Positions 1 through 62,018 of a stretch of 64,000 nucleotides of DNA are shown here, piece by piece. The position numbers and the translations under genes are program-made. How positions within the stretch are numbered: position 1 is the first letter of the stretch; every line of letters starts with the position of its first letter. The notes beneath the pieces are model-generated. The model searched no databases and was not told where the DNA came from. It saw only the letters and a list, made by a program, of their open reading frames with translations. The DNA lies in the NCBI GenBank assembly GCA_947474565.1, contig CANJIS010000007.1, positions 1 to 64,000 on the forward strand. The letters run 5' to 3'. This DNA comes from Alphaproteobacteria bacterium (lineage in GTDB: Bacteria > Pseudomonadota > Alphaproteobacteria > Micropepsales > Micropepsaceae).

Positions 1-179
1 GCCCCATAGCTCGCTCGGTTATCAGCCGCCGGCCCCCGAAACCGCGTCGTCGCTATGGCCGCCCTCCGGTTCCGCTACGCTCCACCTACGGCCGGCCATA
101 GCGCTGGAGGCTGCAATGCACTAACAATCAAAACGGACCACTCAGTGGGGGCCGATCACAGGCGCACGGCCATATAAAA
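1..179. other. Gene-free flank after tolB
   Basis: No gene is supported here. An 11-bp perfect inverted repeat (CGCTATGGCCG at 51-61, CGGCCATAGCG at 93-103) could form a hairpin past the tolB stop, but no T-run follows. In most alphaproteobacteria pal follows tolB. The only possible start of a leftward neighbour is an ATG at positions 5-7 that runs off the edge, which is too little to call. Confidence 0.4.
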
Positions 180-2308: not shown

Positions 2309-2732
2309 CCGTGACAAGCCCGATATGGGTGAAACCGGCAGCCGACAGCATGCCCATCACGATCATCACCTTGCCGTAATTCACGGTGGTATCGCCGCGC
2401 ACAAAGATGCGCTGGTCATAGCCATTGTTAGAGATGGCCGTGAGCTTGGGCACCAATTCGTCTTCGGTGATGAGCTGCTTCTGCAGATAGATTTTGCCGT
2501 CCTTGGCAATGGAGACCGAAAGCGGCTCGCGGTCCTGGCCCAGCGCGGGCGCGCGGGTCTTGGGCAGGTCCACCGGCACGCCAACCGTCAACAACGGCGC
2601 GGTGACCATGAAGACGATCAAGAGCACCAGCATCACGTCCACGAATGGCGTGACGTTGATTTCGGACATTGGCCGGCCACGGCGGCGTCCGCGCCGCGAC
2701 TGGATTCCGCCTTGGCTAATACCGCCAGCCAT
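2277..2732 (-). CDS. tolR: Tol-Pal proton channel subunit TolR
   Basis: TolR/ExbD family subunit that forms the proton channel with TolQ in the inner membrane. In 151 residues it has an unusually basic N-terminus (runs of Arg at residues 13-20), the conserved '[19 protein letters not shown]' region with the essential membrane Asp at residue 32, and a periplasmic C-terminal domain. The start codon shares one base with the tolQ stop, and the end overlaps tolA. The Arg-rich leader is longer than in enteric TolR. Confidence 0.96.
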
Positions 2733-3619
2733 CAGCGCGCTTTCTCTTCCAGCTGACGAGAAAGAATGGCGGAGAATTCGTCGGCGAAGGCGTCGAGCCG
2801 GTTCACATAGCGGCCGATTTCATTGACGAAGCGGTTGTAGAAAATAACCGCCGGCACCGCCGCAAGCAGGCCCATGGCGGTGGTGAACAAGGCCTCGGCG
2901 ATGCCCGGCGCCACCACGGCCAGCGTGGTGTCATGGCGGGCGGCGATGGCGCTGAAGGCATTCATGATGCCCCAAACCGTGCCGAACAGGCCGATAAAGG
3001 GCGACACCGAACCCACCGTGGCGAGGAAACCCAACTGGCGTTCAATGCCGTCGGTCTCGCGCAGAATGGTGACGTTCATCGCCTTTTCGATGCGCTCCTT
3101 GATGCCGGGGATCTGGCTTTCGCGGGGCTGATTGCCGCCTTCGAAGGCACGGCGCCATTCGCGCAGCGCGGCGATGAACGTGGCAGCCATGGGGTGATCG
3201 GCCTTGGGCGCAATCTGGGAATACAGCTCATCCAGCGATTGGCCCGACCAGAAGAGTTTTTCAAACTTCGCGGCCTTGCGCTTCAGAGAACCCAGCACCA
3301 GCCACTTGTTGAAGATGATCGCCCAGCTGAACAGCGAGCCAAGCAGAAGAATGGCCATGGTGGCCTTCACCACCAAACCGGCGGTCATGAACATGTTGAC
3401 CAGATTGAAGCCGGCGCCGACATCGCCGCCGATGGGGCCGCTGGAATTGGCAGCGCCGGAAAGCGGCGCCAGGGATTGGACGGTGGTGCCGCCCGCGCCG
3501 CTGGGTGCGGCAGTGGGGGCGGATTGCGGCGGCAGCGGGGGCGCTTCCTGCAACTGGGCGAGTGCCGGCGTTGCCAGGCTGAGGAACAGCAAAAGAGCAA
3601 GCAGACGCTTCATCGTCAT
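2732..3619 (-). CDS. tolQ: TolQ/ExbB-type proton channel subunit with N-terminal signal-like extension
   Basis: MotA/TolQ/ExbB family channel subunit that drives the Tol complex. The ATG at 3619 (a purine-rich AGGTTTG stretch lies just upstream) gives about 295 residues, some 65 longer than E. coli TolQ. The extra part is a signal-peptide-like segment ([19 protein letters not shown]) followed by a Pro/Ala/Gly-rich stretch, placing a short extension ahead of the usual three membrane segments. Similar leaders are known in some ExbB proteins. Gene order ybgC-tolQ-tolR-tolA-tolB makes the Tol role much more likely than a TonB-associated ExbB. Confidence 0.92.
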
Positions 3620-3693
3620 GGAACAAACCTTAAATGGGACGGCCCGTCGAAAGCCGTGGGATGAATGCAATTCAATCTTGGCCGAACTACGGC

Positions 3694-4142
3694 TTACGTC
3701 CCTGATTCGTAAAGAAAAGGCGTCAATAAATCACGTATATCCTGCGGTATGCGCCGGGGTTTGCCGGTTAACGTGATGATGCAGGCTTCGATCCGTCCAT
3801 CGGTGAGCAAAATTTCATCAGCATAGATGCGCTGGCGGGCCAGAAGGCGCGCGCCGGAAAGCCCAGTCAACATCGTGTGAACCTGAAGCGTGTCGTCCAT
3901 CCGGCCGGGGCGCTGGAATTCGATCTGGACGTTGCGAATGGCCCAGGCGGTGGGCTCATCCAGTTCCAGCCCCTCGATCTTGGAGATGCCGGCGGAGCGG
4001 AAAAATTCGGTGCGGCCGCGTTCCATATAGCGCAGGTAATTGGCGTGATAGATCACACCCGACAGATCGGTGTCTTCGTAATAGACCCTGAGCGGCAGCA
4101 CATGGGTCTTGCCGTCGAAATGACCGAGGCCCTTTACGCCAC

Positions 4143-4146
<4 letters not shown>
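3694..4146 (-). CDS. ybgC: Tol-Pal associated acyl-CoA thioesterase YbgC
   Basis: Hotdog-fold thioesterase of the 4-hydroxybenzoyl-CoA thioesterase type, found almost always beside tol genes. It is thought to act on short or medium acyl-CoA or acyl-ACP linked to phospholipid metabolism. The 150-residue protein carries the signature around residues 22-40 ([20 protein letters not shown]), including the catalytic Asp and the His-containing loop. The start overlaps the ruvB stop by 4 bases. A 74-base gap separates it from tolQ, the largest in this run, so a secondary promoter for tolQRAB could lie there. Confidence 0.94.
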
Positions 4147-5182
<1,036 letters not shown>

Positions 5183-8477: not shown

Positions 8478-9224
8478 TCAGCCAGCTAATTTGGCCATGA
8501 GCGCGTCAGAGAGCTCATAATTGCCATAGACGTTCTGGACGTCGTCATGGTCGTCGAGCACTTCGATCAGCTTGGCCAGGGTTTCACCCGCATCATCGGC
8601 CACCGCCACACTGCTCTGGGGCCGCCAGATGATGGCGGCGGACTGGGGCGCGCCCAGCTTGGCTTCCAGCGCATCGCGCACCGAAGCAAAGCCTTCGATG
8701 GAGGTGAGGAATTCATGGCCCTCATCGGTGGAGACACATTCATCGGCGCCAGCTTCCAAGGCCGCTTCCAGCATGGCGTCGTCGCTGCCCTTGGCCTTGG
8801 GATAGGCGATCAGGCCAACATGATCGAACATGAAGCTGGCTGAACCGGTTTCGCCCATCGCCCCGCCATGTTTGGAGAAGGCGGCGCGGATGTCGGCGCT
8901 GGTGCGGTTGCGGTTGTCGGTCATGGTCTCGACGATCAGGGCGACGCCGCCGGGGCCACGGCCCTCATAGCGGATCTCGTCATAATTCTCGCCCTCGCCG
9001 CCCGCCGCTTTGCTGATGGCGCGCTGGATCGTGTCCTTGGACATGGACTCCTGCTTGGCGGCGATGATGGCGGTGCGCAGGCGGGCGTTGAGATCAGGGT
9101 CCGGCAGGCCCGATTTGGCGGCGACGGTGATTTCGCGGGACAGCTTGGCGAAGAGCTTGGAGCGCTCTTTGTCCTGCTTGCCCTTGCGGAACATGATGTT
9201 CTTGAACTGGCTATGACCGGCCAT
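8478..9224 (-). CDS. yebC: YebC/PmpR family translation-factor-like regulator
   Basis: YebC/TACO1 family protein of 248 residues starting [18 protein letters not shown], the family's near-invariant opening; an in-frame upstream extension is not needed. Conserved blocks are present: '[15 protein letters not shown]', '[18 protein letters not shown]' and 'GSASFMFDH'. Family members have been described as transcription regulators and, for the YebC/TACO1 group, as factors that help ribosomes through proline stretches; which applies here is open. It is often near ruvC in bacteria, as here. Confidence 0.96.
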
Positions 9225-51094: not shown

Positions 51095-54000
51095 ATGACC
51101 GATCATCATCAACTGGCACAGGAACGCCTGACCCAGGCGCGCCGTGACATCGCTCGTACCGGCGATCTCCCCACCTTCTTCGATGCCCTGTTTGCGGGCG
51201 CCGATGCCGAAGACATTTTAATGTCGGAAGCGCTGGTGAAAATCGCCAGCACCGCCAAAAACGTGCTCGACCGTCATCAGCCCGGCGACATCACTGTCGA
51301 GTTGCTGCCCGGCCCCGACGCCAAGGAACCGCAGGACCTGCTGGTGGCGATCAATGACGACCGCCCCTTCCTGTACGACAGCGCCTTGCGCGCGGCGGCA
51401 GCGGGCGGCGGACACGTCCGCGCCGCTTTTCATCCCATCGTCAGCCACAACGGTAAATCCACCAGTGTGATTGTGCTGCTGCTGGATATGGTGGGCGCGC
51501 GCGATGAATTGACCGAGACCATGCGCAAGGCATTTGGCGCGGGCATGCTGGCGGTACGCGACTGGAAGAAGATGCTGGAACGGCTCAAAGCGGTGCGCGA
51601 CGAACTCGCCGCCCATCCGCCGCAAGGCCGCAATATCAGCGAAGATCTGGCCTTTCTGGACTGGCTGGCCGACAACAATTTCACCTTCCTGGGCGCGCGC
51701 GATTACAAGCTGAACCAGGATGGCGGCAGGGCGCAACTGGAGCCGGTGGATGTTTCCGGCCTGGGCGTTCTGGCCGATGCGCAGGAGCGCGTATTGCGCA
51801 AGGCATCCGAGCCGCGCGAGCTTTCCCGCGAAGTGCAGGAATTTTTGAATTAACCGGCCGCCCTGATCGTCACCAAATCCAGCAGCATCAGCCAGGTCCA
51901 TCGCCGCACCCATATGGATTATGTCGGCGTCAAAACTTTTGATGCCGCCGGCAAATTCACCGGCGAGCATCGCTTTGTCGGGCCGTTCACCTCCAGCGCC
52001 TACAGCCTCAACCCCCGCCAGATTCCCTTGCTGCGCCAGAAAATCGCGGCGGTGACAGCGCGCGCCGGTCTGGCGCCGTCCAGTCACGACGGCAAGGCGC
52101 TGGCGCATATTCTCGATACCTTCCCGCGCGACGAACTGTTTCAGGTCTCGGACGACGAGCTGTATGCCATCGCGCTGGGTATCCTGCGCCTGGGCGGGCG
52201 GCCGAAAGTCAGGCTGTTCCTGCGCTTCGACCGTTTCGACCGCTTCGTCTCGGCGCTGCTGTTCGCGCCGCGCGATCACATGAATCCCATGGCGCGGGCG
52301 CGTATTCATGCCTTGCTGGCAAAAACGCTGAACGGCCGCACCTCGGCCTCCGATGCTGCGATTGATGAAACCGCGCTGGTGCGAATCCATTTCATCATCG
52401 GCCGCAATGCCGGCCCACGGCCCAAGGCCGACATTGCCCAGCTGGAGGATGAGATCACCGAAATCCTCAAGACCTGGGATGACGGCCTGGTCGAAGCGAT
52501 GAGCGCCCGCCACGGCCGCAGCGAAGGCGCACGGATGGCGGCGGCGCGGGCGCCAAAATTCTCGCCGGGCTATCAGGGCCATTTCTCCGCCCATGAAGCG
52601 GTGTGCGATCTGGAGATACTGGAACTTCTGGCCTCCAGCCATGATCCGGTAAAGGTTGCGGCCAGCGTCTATCGCAAAGCCGGCGATGCCGCGCCGGTGA
52701 TCCGGCTGAAGCTGCATGTTCTGGGTGAAATTCTTCCTTTGTCGGCCACCTTGCCGGTGTTCGAGAATCTAGGTCTGAAAGTCATCGCGGAAGACAATTT
52801 CACCCTCAGCTTCAAGCGCGATGACGGCTGGAATGCGCAAGCGGTGATCCTGGATTTCCTGATGGAGCGGGCCGATGGCCAGCCGGTGCATGTCGACGAT
52901 ATCCGCGAGCCGCTAGAAGATGTTTTCCATGCCGTGATCCGGGGCAAGGCGGAAAGCGACAATTTCAATAGACTGGTCATGGGCGCAGGACTGCCCTGGC
53001 GCGACGTCACCATCCTGCGGGCTGTGGCGAAATTCCTGCGTCAGTCCGCCTTCTCCTTCAGCCAGGACTATATGGAGCAGACGCTGAACCGGAACCCGCA
53101 GATTGCCGGGTTGCTGGTGGAGCTGTTCTTCGCGCGCAATCATCCCACCGAGGCCAGTGAAGCGGCGGCCAAGAAAGCGGGCGAGCGGATCGAAGCGGCG
53201 CTGCGCGATGTGCCCAGCCTTGACGATGATCGCATCCTGCGGCGCTTCCGCAACGTGATCGAAAATATTCTGCGCACCAATTACTGGCAGGAGAACGGCC
53301 AGCGCCCGGCGCTGGCCTTCAAGCTGGATTCCCACAAGCTTGATGAATTGCCCGCGCCGCGTCCCTGGCGGGAAATTTTTGTCTATTCGCCAGCCATGGA
53401 GGGCGTGCATTTGCGCTTCGGCAAAGTGGCGCGCGGCGGCTTGCGCTGGAGCGACCGGCGCGAAGATTTCCGCACCGAAATTCTCGGTCTGGTGAAAGCG
53501 CAGCAGGTCAAGAATGCCGTAATTGTGCCGGTGGGCGCCAAGGGCGGTTTTTATCCCAAGCTGGCGGTGGCGACCGGCGACCGCGAAGCGATGATGGCGA
53601 ACGGCATCGCCGCCTACAAGATTTTCATCAACGCCCTGTTGGACATCACCGACAATCTCAAGCCCGATGGCGCGGTGGTGCCGCCCAAGGATGTGGCGCG
53701 CCATGATGGCGATGATCCCTATCTGGTGGTGGCTGCCGACAAGGGCACCGCGACATTCTCGGACATCGCCAACGGCATTGCCGAAGGACGCGCTTCTGGC
53801 TGGGCGATGCCTTCGCCTCCGGCGGCAGCCATGGCTATGACCACAAGAAAATGGGCATCACCGCGCGGGGCGCCTGGGAAGCCGTGAAACGCCACTTCCG
53901 CGAAATGGGCCGTGACATTCAGAAGGAAGATTTCAGCGTCATCGGCGTGGGCGACATGTCGGGCGACGTCTTCGGCAACGGCATGCTGTTGTCGGAGCAT

Positions 54001-54264
54001 ATCAGGCTGGTGGCGGCGTTCGATCATCGCCACATTTTCCTGGACCCGAATGCCGACGCGGCAACCAGCTTTGCCGAACGCCAGCGCATGTTCGCCCTGC
54101 CCCGTTCCAGCTGGGACGATTACAACAAAAGCCTGATCGGCAAGGGCGGCGGCGTGTTTGCCCGCACCCTGAAGGAAATTCCGCTGAGCGATGAGGTCCG
54201 GGCGCTGATCGGCAGCGATGCCGCCGGGGGCCGATCACCGTATTTTCGGCCTTTCCGGGCTTAA
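51095..54264 (+). pseudogene. gdhB: NAD-specific glutamate dehydrogenase remnant, three lesions
   Basis: Fragments of the large (about 1600-residue) NAD-GDH, which deaminates glutamate to 2-oxoglutarate. The N-terminal domain (51095-51850) ends at TAA 51851-51853 after 'REVQEFLN'; the same frame resumes with 'PAALIVTKS' through 'MDYVGVK' and 'RGGLRWSDRREDFRTEILGLV', as in intact enzymes. Near 53784-53796 a base is missing; the next frame continues [19 protein letters not shown]. After '[15 protein letters not shown]' the homology stops at about 54225 and a stop occurs at 54262-54264, so roughly 550 C-terminal residues are gone. Three independent lesions indicate a true pseudogene. Confidence 0.93.
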
Positions 54265-54346: not shown

Positions 54347-55309
54347 ATGTTTATGACCGTCCGCCGCCCGCTGGCCTTCAGCGCGGCCGCTATTGCCATC
54401 CTTGCCGTCGCCGGCTGCGCCAGCGACGACGCCACCTCCGCCGCTACGCCTTTCACCCAGGCGCTGGCCACCAATTATACCGACCTGGCCAACCAGGCAG
54501 CGTCTGTGCCCACGCCGGACAGCGACCTGAACTTCCTGGAAGAGACGGCGGTGTTTGTCTCCAATCCGTTCGGACTGTTCGGTGATGACGGCACCAGCAG
54601 CAGCTCCAATGACCTGCTGGTTCAGGCTTTCACCTCCAAGGCCGAACTGGCCGCGCAGGGCGAAGAGCCCGCCCCCGAACCGGCCCCCGCCGACCCGGGC
54701 GCCCAGAGCATCCATGACCGGCTGGTTCGCGCCGTGGCCGCGGGCAAAGATCGTTTCGCCGATCAAGCCGCCCGCGCCCAGGCCGATTATGATTGCTGGA
54801 TCCTGGATTCCAGCGTCGCCAGCATGGCGGCTGCTGCCGCAGCCTGCAAAGGCTCGCTGGATCGTTCGCTGATCGCCCTGGAAAATTCGGCCCGTCCCGC
54901 GCCGCCGCCCACAAGCTTCCCGGTCGCGCCGATTGCGCCGCCGCCGCCCGTGGCTGCCGCCCCCATGGCGCCGCCGCCTGCCGAAAACACGGTCTATTTC
55001 GATTTCAATTCCTGGACCCTGACCGCCGAAAACCTGACGGTGATCACCAATGTGATTAACACCGCCCGGACCGGCGGCCAGTCGCGTATCACCGTTGTGG
55101 GTCATACCGATACGTCCGGCGCGCCGGACTATAACCAGAGGCTGTCGGTTCGTAGAGCCAATGTGGTGGTCGAAGCGCTGATCGATATGGGCGCTCGTCG
55201 AGCCGCCATTGAGGCGTCGGGCGTGGGCGAAAACGACCTGGCGGTTCAGACGCCGGACGGCACCAAGGAAGCCAAGAACCGCCGTGCGGTGATCGGCCTG
55301 CAGCCGTAA
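54347..55309 (+). CDS. OmpA-type peptidoglycan-binding lipoprotein
   Basis: 320 residues. Lipoprotein signal with lipobox LAVAGC (Cys about residue 25), an acidic and Pro/Ala-rich middle (about 100-215), and a C-terminal OmpA domain starting 'NTVYFDFNSWTLTAEN', with 'VVGHTDTSGAPDYNQRLSVRRANVVVEALIDMG' holding the D and R that bind the peptide stem. It should tether the outer membrane to peptidoglycan, like Pal or OmpA. A second ATG two codons in would also serve. Followed by a strong terminator. Confidence 0.93.
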   Translation: MFMTVRRPLAFSAAAIAILAVAGCASDDATSAATPFTQALATNYTDLANQAASVPTPDSDLNFLEETAVFVSNPFGLFGDDGTSSSSNDLLVQAFTSKAELAAQGEEPAPEPAPADPGAQSIHDRLVRAVAAGKDRFADQAARAQADYDCWILDSSVASMAAAAAACKGSLDRSLIALENSARPAPPPTSFPVAPIAPPPPVAAAPMAPPPAENTVYFDFNSWTLTAENLTVITNVINTARTGGQSRITVVGHTDTSGAPDYNQRLSVRRANVVVEALIDMGARRAAIEASGVGENDLAVQTPDGTKEAKNRRAVIGLQP

Positions 55310-55334: not shown

Positions 55335-55364
55335 GGGCCCGCTCACACTGGCGGGCCCTTTTTT
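55335..55364 (+). terminator. Rho-independent terminator of the OmpA-like lipoprotein gene
   Basis: GGGCCCGC (55335-55342) pairs with GCGGGCCC (55351-55358) and is followed by six T. It begins 26 bases after the stop codon. Confidence 0.95.
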
Positions 55365-55443
55365 GTTGGGTTTCAGCCCTTTGCGCGGAAAGGACGCGTT
55401 CCCGGGCTATCGCCTTGGCAACGAACCTTTTAAGGTCCGCGTT

Positions 55444-55821
55444 ATGACTGAGATGCGGCTCTTGCGGACAATTTGGCTTTTTGCCGGCCTGGCGGCGCTT
55501 TCGCCCCTGGCCCTGTCACAGCCCGTGTCGGCGCAAGGCTCCAATTACAGCGTGCAGACGATGAACTTCGATCTGTGGTGCCAGGAGCAGATGCATCTGG
55601 CGCCCGAGCGCTGCGACAAGCGATTGCCGCAAGATGATGCGGCCTTCACGGCGTTTCGCGCCAAGATCGAGGCCTATGAAATTCCCTACCTTCAGGACAA
55701 GAAGAACCAGATCAACCTGAACAACAACATCCTGCACAATGATCCGACGGTCACGCCGGATTCGGGCCAGACGCTGCAGCAACAGCGCAATCCGACTATC
55801 GACACGCGTACAACCCGCTAG
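55444..55821 (+). CDS. Small exported protein with conserved FDLWCQE motif
   Basis: 125 residues from ATG 55444. Signal peptide (MTEMRLLRTIWLFAGLAALSPLALS), then 'TMNFDLWCQEQMHLAPERCDKRLPQDDAAFTAFRAKIEAYEIPYLQDKKNQINLNNNILHND', a pattern I recall from alphaproteobacterial secreted proteins of unknown function. The two Cys may form a disulfide. The C-terminus is Asn/Thr/Gln-rich. Function unknown. Confidence 0.78.
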   Translation: MTEMRLLRTIWLFAGLAALSPLALSQPVSAQGSNYSVQTMNFDLWCQEQMHLAPERCDKRLPQDDAAFTAFRAKIEAYEIPYLQDKKNQINLNNNILHNDPTVTPDSGQTLQQQRNPTIDTRTTR

Positions 55822-55837
55822 GCGGGACACCCTCTCC

Positions 55838-56545
55838 TCAAGAAGATCGACTGAGTTCGTCGCTGTTGGCGGCGCCTTTCAGGCGCGTGAACGCATCGAA
55901 CATCTTCTGCAACAAATCTCCGCTGCCGAAATTGGAAAGATTGGGGTGATCCTGGTTCACCACCAGGCGCAGATACGGCGCTTTGGGATGGGACTTCATC
56001 ATGGAAGGCGGGGGCGGGGGCGGAAGATTCTGGTCATAATGCGGAAGCGGTTCGTCTTCATTGATCAGCTGCGATGCGATCAATCTTTCATACGCAATCG
56101 CGCGGCCGAGCAGCGGTGTGGGATCCGATAACATCTGCACCAGGCCGAAGAAGCGCTTGGGCTGACTGCCATTGAAGCTAACCGGGGCAAGGATAGTTTC
56201 AAGTTCGACCATGCCGTTGTCGGCAGTGGCTGCGATGGAAGACAGGCAAACCGGCTGATTTGTCTGCAGCGCCTGGCGCAGCAGCGAAGCCAGCGCGAGA
56301 CCTGATTGAGATTCCCAATGGGCAAGGAAACCGGTGCCCTTCAGTTCGAAACCGAACCGTTCGCACAGCGCGGTGCCGGCCAAACGGTAAACAGGTCGTG
56401 AAGGGTTCTCGCAGTCGAGAATAAATGTGTAAGACAAAAGCCGCTTGATCTGGCGCGGATCGATATCCGTCTGGTCGGGAACATCCCGTCCATTGCGCAG
56501 TCGGCTCCAATACCCCACCAGCAGGTGCGAATTCTTGTGTTTCAT
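55838..56545 (-). CDS. PAS domain protein (PAS_5-like)
   Basis: 235 residues. The first 150 resemble the alphaproteobacterial PAS_5 domain ('YWSRLRNGRDVPDQTDIDPRQIKRLLSYTFILD', 'YRLAGTALCERFGFELKGTGFL'), followed by a proline run (about 180) and a hydrophilic tail. No output domain. Family members act as small sensory or adaptor proteins of unclear function. It is divergent from the Asn-rich locus, so the 371-base interval serves both. Confidence 0.8.
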   Translation of the reverse strand: MKHKNSHLLVGYWSRLRNGRDVPDQTDIDPRQIKRLLSYTFILDCENPSRPVYRLAGTALCERFGFELKGTGFLAHWESQSGLALASLLRQALQTNQPVCLSSIAATADNGMVELETILAPVSFNGSQPKRFFGLVQMLSDPTPLLGRAIAYERLIASQLINEDEPLPHYDQNLPPPPPPSMMKSHPKAPYLRLVVNQDHPNLSNFGSGDLLQKMFDAFTRLKGAANSDELSRSS

Positions 56546-56916: not shown

Positions 56917-59770
56917 ATGTCGCTCAAACCAGCATTATTTTTGACATCCGCGCTGGTAGGTACCGGCCTGGTTGCCGCTCCCTTCTCGGCACAAGCCGGC
57001 GGCATGACCCATGTTGGGAATTGGGGCGGCGAAGCCGGTACCAGCCCGGTGATCAGCAATCTTGCCTGCGACACGCCTGCTTTCATGCAGCAGCCGATCA
57101 TTCCCCAGGTGCGCATGCCCAATTCCGGCATGAACACGTATGGATTCGGCCGCAACCGCGACCGTGACAATGACAATGCGGCCAACAGCTTTGGCCGCAA
57201 CCAGGACAATGCCGGTCAGGTCAATGTCCCACATCCGGGCAATTTCGGCGGCAACCGTCCGCTCAACGTGCAAGGCAATTTCGGTCCCAGCGAACCGGTC
57301 AACGTCCAGGCTGATGCGCCGCAGGTGCGCGCGCGCGGCGGTGACTTCTGCGGCAATCGCCAGAACTTCGGCGGCAATCAGAATTTCGGCGGCGGCAACC
57401 ACAACTTCGGTGGCGGCGAACAGAATTTAGAAGGTAACCGCCAGAACTTCAGCGGCGGCAACCGCAATTTCGCCCCGCAGGCCAATACCGATTCCAGCAA
57501 TCGCCGCGGCAATTTCGGCGGCAACAACATGAATGTGTAGCGGCCGTCCGAAGCGGGCAGCCCCCATATCGAGAATTTCAAGGCAATGGAGGTCAATCGT
57601 CCCGCCTCCAACAATGTCGAAAACCACACCCAGGTGGAAGGCAATCGCCCGTCCTTCAATCGCAGCATGGAAGGCAACCGCCAGAATTTCGGCGGCGGCA
57701 ATATCGAAACCAGCAAGCCCGCCTTCAACCATGACGATGGCGGCTCAAAGAATTACGGCTATGGCGACAAGAATGCCGGCGGCAACAAGAAGTTCGAGAA
57801 CTTCCGTCCGAGCACGGTAAACAACGACGTCCGGGTCAATAACAACAACAAGACCATCAACAATATCGATAATTCCAAGAAGATCGATATCTACAAGCCG
57901 GTGACGATCGAAAAGAACATCGATAATTCGAAGAACATCAACATCAACAAGTCGATCGAGATCAACAAGAACGCCTCGATCAACAGCAACAACACCAGCT
58001 ACACCGTCAACAAGGGCGGCAATGGCGGTGGTGGCGGCGGCAGCAACAGCAATTCCAACAGCAGCGCGGATGCCGCAGCGGCGGCGCTGGCGGCCGCGAT
58101 CTCGCAGCTGTCCAACACCACCGCCAACCAGAATCACAACAACAACAGCTCCAGCGCCACGGGCGGCAGCTCGACCGGCGGCACGACTGTCATCAACATC
58201 ACCGGCCCGACCGTCACCGCCAATGGCGGCGAAGGCGGCGCGGGCGGCGAAAGCGGCTCGAGCTCGCTGAGCGATATCACTGTCACGGGCGGCAACGCCA
58301 CCGGCGGCAATGCCAATGCCACCAGCGCCAATACCAACACCAACAACAACGCCAGCACGGCGACCAACAACAACACGAGCACGAACAACAACACCAGCAA
58401 CGCGACCGCGACCAACAACAACACGAACAACAACAATGCGTCGTCCTTCGCGGCGGCGACGGCGTCGGGTTCGGGTTCGGGTTCGGGTGGCGGCGGCAGC
58501 CCTGTGACGGTCAACGTCTCGCAGCAGCAACAGCAGGCGCAGCAGCAGGCTCAACAGCAGCAGCTGATCAACAACAACAACAACTTCAACAACAATAACA
58601 ACAACAACAACTACAACTACAACTACAACACGAACAACAACAACAACGCGAACAACAACAACTCAAACTTCAACAACAACAATAACAACAACAATTCCAA
58701 CTTCAACTACAACAACAACACCAACTACAACCGCGGCGGCGGCTGCGGCGTCAGCTGGTGCGGCAGCGGCGGCCGGCAGCCTGGTAGCGGCAGGTGCCGT
58801 AGCGGGAGCGGCCGGTTACGGCCAAGGCTATGGCTATGGCCAATGTTACGGTCAGGGCTATGGCTATGCCCAAGGCGGCGGTCAGGGTTACGGCTATGCC
58901 GCGCCCTATGGCGGCCCCAACTACTACAGCATTTATCAGCAGGGCGGCTTTGCTGCCGGCGGCGGCGCTTACGGTTACGGCCGTCCTTATGAAGGCCAGG
59001 TCGTGGGCCAGGCTCCGGCGGGCCAATACTATGTCGGCCATGGCGCCGGCGTGGCGATCACCGATGCCGCGGGCAACTACGCCCATGGTTACGGCTATGG
59101 CTATGCCCAGCCGGTGCAGCAGAGCGTGGCGCAGCCGGGTCCGGCGCCTGTCCAGGGCTACAGCGCCCAGGTGCAGCAGCAGAGCGTCGCCAGCAATGAC
59201 AACAGCATGGTCGGCGGCCAGTGCCACTTCGTGCAGGCCACCGTCATCAAGTCCATCCACGCGGTCTGCGTCAGCAGCGACGGGCATCAGTTCCCCGCCT
59301 CGCACATGACGCCCGACACCTGGATCAACAACAGCTACGAAGGCGAAGTCGCGCGCTGCTTGCCCGGCTCGACCCTGCGTGTGCTGCTCGGCTCGGTGAT
59401 GCAGTCCAACCAGGGCATGGCGACGACGTATGAAGACGCCGAAGCCCTGATGTGCGGCGCCGGCGAAGCCGCCCGCCACTACAAGGACGGCATGCTGAAA
59501 TGCGCACCGGCCGAAAAGGTGGTGGACTGCACCGAGCGCACCAATCTGCGCAAATGGGGCACCGGCGACATGTTCTTCACCTATGTCACCCAGGTCTGCC
59601 TGGAACAGCATCAGCAGCTGGTCGGCGGCCAGACCAAGGAATCGGCGGAAGCTGCCGCAGTCCGCGCCCAGAGCTATGCCAAGACACAGGCCACCAGCGG
59701 CAATGCCTCGGCGCTGCATCTGTCGGGCATGTCGCTCGGCGGCGGCGTCGGTGGCTTGGGCTTCTACTAA
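56917..59770 (+). pseudogene. Large exported asparagine-rich protein, stop codon and frameshift
   Basis: One interrupted gene of about 951 codons. From ATG 56917 (GGGAG about 8 bases upstream): signal peptide ending SAQAGG, then Gly/Asn repeats of FGGN type. TAG at 57538-57540 breaks the frame, but the same frame resumes with 'FKAMEVNRPASNN'. Next come Asn/Ile/Lys repeats (57830-58010), Gly-, Ala- and Ser-rich parts, Gln runs and long Asn runs (58580-58730). About 58730-58760 the frame shifts by one base; the continuing frame gives an Ala-rich segment, YG repeats and a C-terminal domain with seven Cys (HFVQATVIKSIHAVC..., 'CTERTNLRKWGTGD'). No known family recognised. Both lesions could be errors in low-complexity sequence or real decay. 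Confidence 0.72.
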
Positions 59771-59970: not shown

Positions 59971-61140
59971 ATGAATATCCACGAATATCAGGCCAAAGAG
60001 GTCCTGCGCGGCTTTGGTGCGCCGGTGCCTGTCGGCAAGCCCGCTTTCACGGTCGAAGAAGCAGTGGCCGCGGCACGCGCCCTGCCCGGCCCGGTCTGGG
60101 TGGTGAAGGCGCAGATCCATGCCGGCGGACGCGGCAAGGGCGGCGGCGTCAAGGTGGTCAAATCCATCGAGGATGTGGAGAAGGAAGCCAAGCGCATGCT
60201 AGGCATGACGCTGGTCACGCACCAGACCGGCCCGGCCGGCCGCCTGGTCAAGCGCCTTTATATCGAAGACGGCTCGGCGATTGATCGCGAGCTGTATCTG
60301 TCCGCGCTGGTGGACCGCGAAACCAGCCGCATCGCTTTCATCGTGTCCACCGAAGGCGGCATGGACATCGAAAAAGTGGCGCATGACACGCCCGAAAAGA
60401 TCAAGACCTTCCAGGTCGAACCCGTCACCGGCTATTCGCCGTTTGTCGGCAATGAGATCGCCACCGCGCTGGGCGTCAAAGGCGATAGCGCCAAGCAGAT
60501 CGGCCAGGTGGTGAAGAGCCTTTACGAAGCGTTCGTCGCCAAGGACATGAGCCTGCTGGAAATCAATCCGCTGGTGGTGACCAAGGACGGCAAGGTCATC
60601 TGCCTGGATGCCAAGATCAATTTCGACGACAACTCGCTCTATCGCCACAAGGACATTCAGGCGCTGCGCGATCTGGATGAAGAAGATCCGGCGGAAGTCG
60701 AAGCCGGCAAATACGACCTGTCCTACATCAAGCTGGATGGCGAAATCGGCTGCATGGTCAATGGCGCAGGCCTGGCCATGGCGACCATGGACATCATCAA
60801 GCTGTTCGGTTCGGAGCCTGCCAACTTCCTAGACGTTGGCGGCGGCGCGACCAAAGAGAAAGTCACCGCAGCCTTCAAGATCATTGTCAGCGATCCCAAT
60901 GTGAAAGGCATCCTGGTCAACATCTTCGGCGGCATCATGAAATGCGACATCATCGCGGAAGGCATCATCGCCGCCGCCAAGGAAGTGTCGCTGAAGGTTC
61001 CGCTGGTGGTGCGCCTGGAAGGCACCAATGTCGATTTGGGCAAGAAAATACTGGCGAAATCCGGGCTTGCCATCACCTCCGCCGACAATCTCGCCGACGC
61101 GGCCGAGAAGATCGTCAAGGCCGTGAAGGGTTCGAAATAA
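59971..61140 (+). CDS. sucC: Succinate-CoA ligase, beta subunit
   Basis: ATP-grasp subunit of succinyl-CoA synthetase, TCA cycle. 389 residues from ATG 59971 ([16 protein letters not shown]; the open frame continues upstream but is non-coding). Signatures '[18 protein letters not shown]' (nucleotide), '[10 protein letters not shown]', '[17 protein letters not shown]' and the C-terminal '[16 protein letters not shown]' power-helix region. Its stop overlaps the sucD start by one base (TAATG). Confidence 0.98.
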
Positions 61141-62018
61141 TGTCCATTCTCGTCGACAAGAATACCAAGGTCATCTGCCAGGGCTTTACCGGCAACCAGG
61201 GCACCTTCCATTCCGAGCAGGCCATCGCCTATGGCACCAAGATGGTCGGCGGCACCACGCCCGGCAAAGGTGGCACCACCCATCTGGGCCTGCCGGTGTT
61301 CGACACCGTGCGCGAAGCCAAAGAGAAAGTCGGCGCTGACGCCTCGGCGATCTATGTGCCGCCGCCTTACGCCGCCGATGCCATCCTGGAAGCAATCGAC
61401 GCCGAGATTGCGCTGATCGTCTGCATCACCGAAGGCATTCCGGTGCTGGACATGGTGAAGGTCAAGCGCGCCCTCTCCGGCTCCAAGTCGCGGCTGATCG
61501 GTCCCAACTGCCCCGGCGTCATCACGCCCGGCGAGTGCAAGATCGGCATCATGCCCGGCCACATTCACAAGCGCGGCAGCGTCGGCATCGTGTCGCGCTC
61601 CGGCACCCTCACCTATGAAGCGGTCTTGCAGACCACCGTGGCGGGCCTGGGCCAGACCACGTGCGTCGGCATCGGCGGCGACCCGGTCAAGGGCACCGAG
61701 CATATCGACGTTCTGGAAATGCTGCTGGCCGATCCGGAGACCAAATCCATCATCATGATCGGCGAAATCGGCGGCAGCGCCGAGGAAGACGCCGCCGAAT
61801 TCGTGAAGCGCTCCAAGATCAAGAAGCCCATGGTCGGCTTCATTGCCGGCGTCACCGCCCCCCCGGGACGGCGCATGGGCCATGCCGGCGCCATCATTTC
61901 TGGCGGCAAGGGTGGGGCTGAGTCCAAGATCGAGGCCATGAAGTCGGCCGGAATCCGGGTGTCCCCGAATCCGGCGGCCCTGGGCACCACCATGCTGGAC
62001 CTTTTGAACGGAAAATAA
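61140..62018 (+). CDS. sucD: Succinate-CoA ligase, alpha subunit
   Basis: CoA-binding and phosphohistidine subunit. 292 residues starting [18 protein letters not shown]. The phosphorylated His is in [11 protein letters not shown] (about residue 246), and CoA-binding '[20 protein letters not shown]' and '[13 protein letters not shown]' are intact. Followed by a terminator, so sucA is probably transcribed separately or by readthrough. Confidence 0.98.

Follow-up and report, generated by a model that had tools for sequence, protein, structure and literature searches.

A twice-interrupted member of an alphaproteobacterial family of exported repeat proteins, encoded beside a divergent PAS_5 gene

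What is encoded by the asparagine-rich stretch at 56917-59770 of the window, and is the gene still whole? The window is the entire stretch of DNA that was analysed, 64,000 nucleotides from an alphaproteobacterium of the Micropepsaceae. The first-pass annotation had described a signal peptide, FGGN repeats, an Asn/Ile/Lys array, N/Q tracts, YG repeats and a C-terminal domain (CTD) with seven cysteines, all of which were read at 56917-59770. The gene lies on the plus strand between a divergent PAS_5 gene and sucC-sucD (59971-62018, plus strand). Its features and the divergent neighbor are listed below.

55838-56545, minus strand: PAS_5 (PF07310) protein of 235 aa, the divergent neighbor (Pfam E 6.4e-32)
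56917-57540, plus strand: 5' segment (207 aa ORF) with the signal peptide, a Gly-rich part and FGGN repeats, closed by an in-frame TAG at 57538-57540 (translation)
56917-56997, plus strand: Sec-type signal peptide MSLKPALFLTSALVGTGLVAAPFSAQA (translation)
57346-57456, plus strand: FGGN/FGGG tandem repeats, period 21 and 42 (Tandem Repeats Finder)
57541-58740, plus strand: frame resumed past the stop, with FGGG, hexads, Ala/Ser, Gln and Asn tracts (translation)
57817-57981, plus strand: hexad array, degenerate relative to the one by which the family is defined in this order (periodicity score)
58038-58130, plus strand: Ser/Ala-rich linker SNSNSNSSADAAAAALAAAISQLSN, corresponding to the Ala/Ser stretch that is conserved 3' of the hexads in the alignment of relatives
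58492-58731, plus strand: Q/N-rich tract (composition, Tandem Repeats Finder)
58733-58780, plus strand: GGC-rich tandem run of the type GCGGCGGCAGCT, which holds the frame change (frame comparison; Tandem Repeats Finder, period 12)
58810-59200, plus strand: YG/GYGQ repeats (translation, Tandem Repeats Finder)
59201-59767, plus strand: CTD with 7 Cys, 4 of them invariant family-wide, and a predicted all-beta core (alignments; AlphaFold2)
59711-59767, plus strand: C-terminal tail ALHLSGMSLGGGVGGLGFY with a near-invariant GGVG (alignments)

The first-pass annotation had read the protein on the condition that the frame is rejoined. Translation located two lesions, the in-frame TAG at 57538 and a frame change within 58733-58780, since the CTD reads in another frame that ends with the stop at 59770. 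The N-terminus of the 5' segment is similar to those of the intact relatives L022, L025, L026 and L043. Programmed recoding of the TAG and the frameshift was considered and dropped, because the relatives' frames are open and two unrelated events would be required.

Random low-complexity DNA had been named as the reading that would gain if relatives had neither a CTD homologue nor a signal peptide. The result was the opposite. The CTD was found in 26/36 other genomes of the same genus and in 58/96 genomes of the order, as a single copy in each, and the signal peptide and repeats were recovered in relatives along with it. Wider sampling placed the family in several other alphaproteobacterial families, and in a phylum-wide sample every match fell within the Alphaproteobacteria. 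The intact short form is about 300-400 aa long: the signal peptide comes first, then a Gly-rich stretch containing a single Cys, the hexads, the Ala/Ser linker and the CTD, with the GGVG tail last. The window gene carries the marks of the family, namely the signal peptide, CTD cysteines C23, C53, C85 and C101, the C-terminal GGVG, a single copy and the divergent PAS_5 gene, with its frame broken twice. It is far beyond chance, for the CTD is kept in the genus and dN/dS is about 0.28 relative to the closest relative (L039). In the same comparison, departures from the consensus numbered 7 versus 2. Because the CTD remains this well conserved, any break in the window copy is recent.

The locus is conserved together with the gene. 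The usual gene order is an OmpA-family gene, a small secreted protein, the divergent PAS_5 gene, the gene itself, sucC and sucD; the exceptions in which no adjoining PAS_5 gene was found are L043 and L164, besides the cases of loss. Outside the genus, the divergent PAS_5 gene is immediately upstream in 26/28 loci with upstream sequence, and it occurs in nearly all families. The exported repeat protein and the PAS_5 regulator form a widespread alphaproteobacterial gene pair, whose exported partner belongs to a previously undescribed gene family with no Pfam or NCBIfam coverage. The small secreted protein (window 55363-55821) is itself conserved, has no Pfam family and always lies between the OmpA and PAS_5 genes; translation probably begins further downstream than the TTG listed for it.

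The CTD is the best defined part of the protein. An AlphaFold2 model of the domain was all-beta, with a mean pLDDT of 73 and core blocks reaching 95. C23, C53, C85 and C101 are present in 42/42 CTD sequences, C110 is found in some families only, and C8 and C133 occur jointly across the whole genus; all seven cysteines of the window CTD are conserved in the genus. This pattern suggests two core disulfides among the four invariant cysteines and a third, predicted as C8-C133, in this order, and the odd cysteine could link molecules. The domain had been described as Cys-rich and of no known family, and the searches agree. Pfam, NCBIfam and PHROGs gave nothing significant for the CTD, although the hexads were touched by a single phrog, one without known function, and there was no significant match to the PDB by sequence. 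Foldseek matches of the CTD model (best E 0.069, rmsd above 10 A) were rejected.

The protein ends in a second conserved element. GGVG (GGIG in one case) followed by 0-6 residues, the last often aromatic, terminates 39/42 members. The linker ahead of it varies in both length and sequence, so that a short C-terminal motif has been retained while almost everything around it varies. By chance, GGVG-type ends arose in 2 among about 2,480 other six-frame ORFs, most of them spurious. A tail-profile search of six whole genomes found no further gene with a GGVG end, the weaker matches being internal or spurious, and a general sorting signal was rejected on this ground. The GGVG tail is a family-specific end, and a natural guess is that it acts as an anchoring or assembly signal. 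Literature searches gave nothing relevant on the family or its tail.

Upstream of the CTD lies the hexad array. The family consensus is [IV]-x-K-[NP]-[IV]-x, as in IYKPVT INKNIS, and the window copy reads VNNDVR, VNNNNK, TINNID, NSKKID, IYKPVT, IEKNID, NSKNIN, INKSIE, INKNAS. Aliphatic residues recur with a period of six, the periodicity looked for in hexapeptide left-handed beta-helix (LbH) proteins. Periodicity scored 0.96 in the window copy versus a shuffle maximum of 0.61, weaker than the 1.57-1.89 of relatives (shuffle maxima 0.61-1.04). AlphaFold2 placed a 3-residue strand in each 6 residues over the array of a short form, at a pLDDT of about 50 or less; the model of the short form is poor, with a mean pLDDT of 42. 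Several members gave weak matches to LpxD/LpxA-type left-handed beta-helix profiles, far under the curated cut-off; the best LbH score was 26.2 bits versus a cut-off of 242.5 for TIGR01853, and Hexapep reached E 0.048 in one member only. No match to the Hexapeptide LbH profiles (Pfam Hexapep, LpxA-LpxD) therefore exceeded the curated cut-off. Given the hexad periodicity, the low-confidence strand spacing and the weak beta-helix matches, the array likely folds as a beta-solenoid. LpxA, LpxD and PF00132 proteins share with the window family hexads with an aliphatic first position, a likeness accompanied by weak profile matches. The Hexapep pattern has a small residue at the fifth position. In contrast to these proteins, the window family is exported, has I/V at the fifth hexad position and is without the acyltransferase parts.

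Asn is the most frequent residue in the first 608 aa of the window copy, and 54/80 residues of the Q/N-rich tract are N or Q. The longest Asn run is 8, so the "very long Asn runs" of the first-pass annotation were overstated. Could this tract be the active part, making the protein a bacterial extracellular prion-like or amyloid protein? N-rich tracts recur throughout one clade of the family, and a CsgG-type channel is encoded elsewhere in the genome. However, no poly-N or poly-Q tract occurs in the short-form relatives (about 300-400 aa), the CsgG gene stands among HfaA/HfaD-like genes at another locus, and the genome has no curlin repeats. We felt that this reading was very unlikely. The Q/N-rich low-complexity expected of prion-like proteins is present in the expanded clade only, and there the tracts are lineage-specific filler outside the conserved core, which is made up of the signal peptide, hexads, Ala/Ser linker, CTD and GGVG tail. 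The prion-like character noted earlier stood as composition and failed as the defining part; the term would apply to composition only.

The clade in question has enlarged the protein. In the CTD tree, long forms fall in a single clade (13 rows, support 100/95), to which the window copy belongs; three of its rows have no long frame because they are truncated or cut by contig ends. Intact long members are 1,055, about 1,175, 3,382 and 3,832 aa. Gly makes up 23-25% of their middle part and Thr 18-21% (in L043, 17% Gly and 18% Thr), and Ser and Asn are added to these; 2-6% of the residues are charged, about 10% are hydrophobic and none is Cys. Relatives in this clade with a stated source are freshwater MAGs from lake and reservoir samples. 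This is a clear case of tenfold protein growth at one syntenic locus, from about 350 to nearly 4,000 aa, with later decay in the genome-reduced members.

Exported repetitive surface proteins with N-rich repeats are known in alphaproteobacteria, and the holdfast anchors HfaA/HfaD and curli (CsgA) resemble the window family in this respect. HfaA is amyloid-like (PMC6707917). The window family differs in having the CTD and GGVG tail, in lacking the curlin repeat and in having no CsgG/HfaB gene alongside. Curlin_rpt (PF07012) had no match in the whole window genome, and its sole CsgG-type (HfaB-like) gene, confirmed by Pfam, is at G000:C19, away from the window gene. Curli membership was ruled out on these two grounds. 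No outer-membrane exporter or anchor gene adjoins the window gene. By inspection, the CsgG-family gene (L089:7033-9139) is flanked by short secreted proteins that resemble the HfaA-HfaB-HfaD holdfast anchor. Its separate position and its own neighbors leave the window protein with no exporter assigned to it.

The partner gene offers a different view of function. The window gene's neighbor is the sole PAS_5 match in its genome. Two small genomes lack the gene at its conserved place, and the neighbor shares in the loss: G015 (2.5 Mb, L102) is missing both genes, and in G018 (2.3 Mb, L100) the gene is gone and the PAS_5 gene is reduced to its end. Judged by this neighborhood only, the gene is probably expressed or controlled jointly with the PAS_5 gene. 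In Caulobacter the single-domain PAS_5 protein MopJ (CCNA_00999) acts as a polarised regulator of the cell cycle (PMC4432633). Its gene, mopJ, is reported among those missing in Caulobacterales without flagellar and holdfast genes (PMC12700997). The likeness is one of a shared Pfam domain (MopJ is 165 aa, the window PAS_5 protein 235 aa) and concerns the neighbor, not the repeat protein. The association and co-loss, together with the regulatory role of MopJ, would suit a periplasmic or envelope sensor or partner of the PAS_5 protein, with a ligand-binding CTD and the repeats as a mere spacer. Yet no membrane-spanning component is encoded that would join the PAS protein to the exported one, and tenfold length tolerance is easier to reconcile with a structural role outside the cell than with a tight sensor. 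We consider the sensor quite unlikely.

Export, repeats, disulfides, tenfold length tolerance and loss in reduced genomes instead fit a surface or extracellular structural or adhesive protein, which from these features is the most likely location and role. The signal peptide would export intact members via Sec. The hexad array would form a beta-solenoid stalk, followed by the Ala/Ser linker and a small beta CTD held by at least two disulfides from the four invariant cysteines, with the GGVG tail free. The solenoid and low-complexity segments may let the protein extend and self-associate, and the functional or anchoring end may be the CTD plus tail. One clade has inserted the long Gly/Thr/Ser/Asn-rich filler between the array and the CTD, giving proteins of up to 3,832 aa. 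Several genome-reduced members have lost the gene through point lesions, deletions or near insertion sequences, the window genome probably among them. Taken as a whole, the reading of the window gene as a decaying copy whose product was a structural or adhesive protein of the surface, exported by Sec, stabilised by disulfides, built on a beta-solenoid and coupled to a PAS_5 regulator, has in our judgment about an even chance of being right. If the surface role holds, the PAS_5/MopJ domain would be tied to a concrete surface structure. A bolder version, which we regard as unlikely, is that the CTD and GGVG form an unrecognised alphaproteobacterial export or surface-assembly module with a dedicated PAS_5 regulator, carrying cargo of about 150 to more than 3,500 residues surfaceward and displaying giant low-complexity polymers in one freshwater clade.

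Is the window copy really decaying? The gene could be intact in the organism, with both breaks introduced by error when this low-complexity region was sequenced or assembled. The second break falls in a slippage-prone GGC-rich tandem run, the CTD residues are still conserved at the low dN/dS given above, large members are frequently at contig ends, and isolated stops occur in otherwise sound members of the group, even in sucC of G006. On the other hand, the TAG at 57538 is a simple substitution and lies in no slippery run. The window genome is 2.18 Mb and estimated 99.8% complete, and the neighboring NAD-glutamate dehydrogenase gene (window 51095-54264) has an in-frame stop near 51851 and a frameshift near 53850, with the rest of its catalytic domain and C-terminus missing ahead of OmpA at 54347. 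Since relatives keep this frame open (L046, L049, L050), real decay is under way at the window locus.

The two small genomes that lack the gene at its conserved place are not the only reduced genomes in which it, or its CTD, has been lost. In G460 (1.8 Mb, L042) the PAS_5 gene and the N-terminal part of the gene are missing. In G006 (2.2 Mb; L101, about 2472-4200, minus strand) no CTD is left, and a GGVG-coding stretch from inside the gene runs directly into the terminal GGVGDRY, the pattern expected if the sequence between short repeats had been deleted or had collapsed in assembly. In several genomes of the expanded clade, transposase-like fragments border the gene or the site where it used to be, at L039:1-130, L041:1-130, L042:9651-9730, L165:1-110 and L099:3451-3530; one matches rve_3 just under the cut-off (E 1.2e-5), and the L042 fragment was found again beside sucC in G001. 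The broken dehydrogenase, the losses and truncations in other small genomes and the transposase-like fragments favor real decay over assembly error, and an intact gene in the organism seems to us rather unlikely. If the surface role holds, loss of the gene would mark a shift from attached to free-living life.

The stop in sucC of G006 (L093) is an in-frame TAA, odd for a central enzyme, and reflects either assembly error or decay. Sequence related to the transposase-like fragments also occurs at window 2-76 and 9071-9148.
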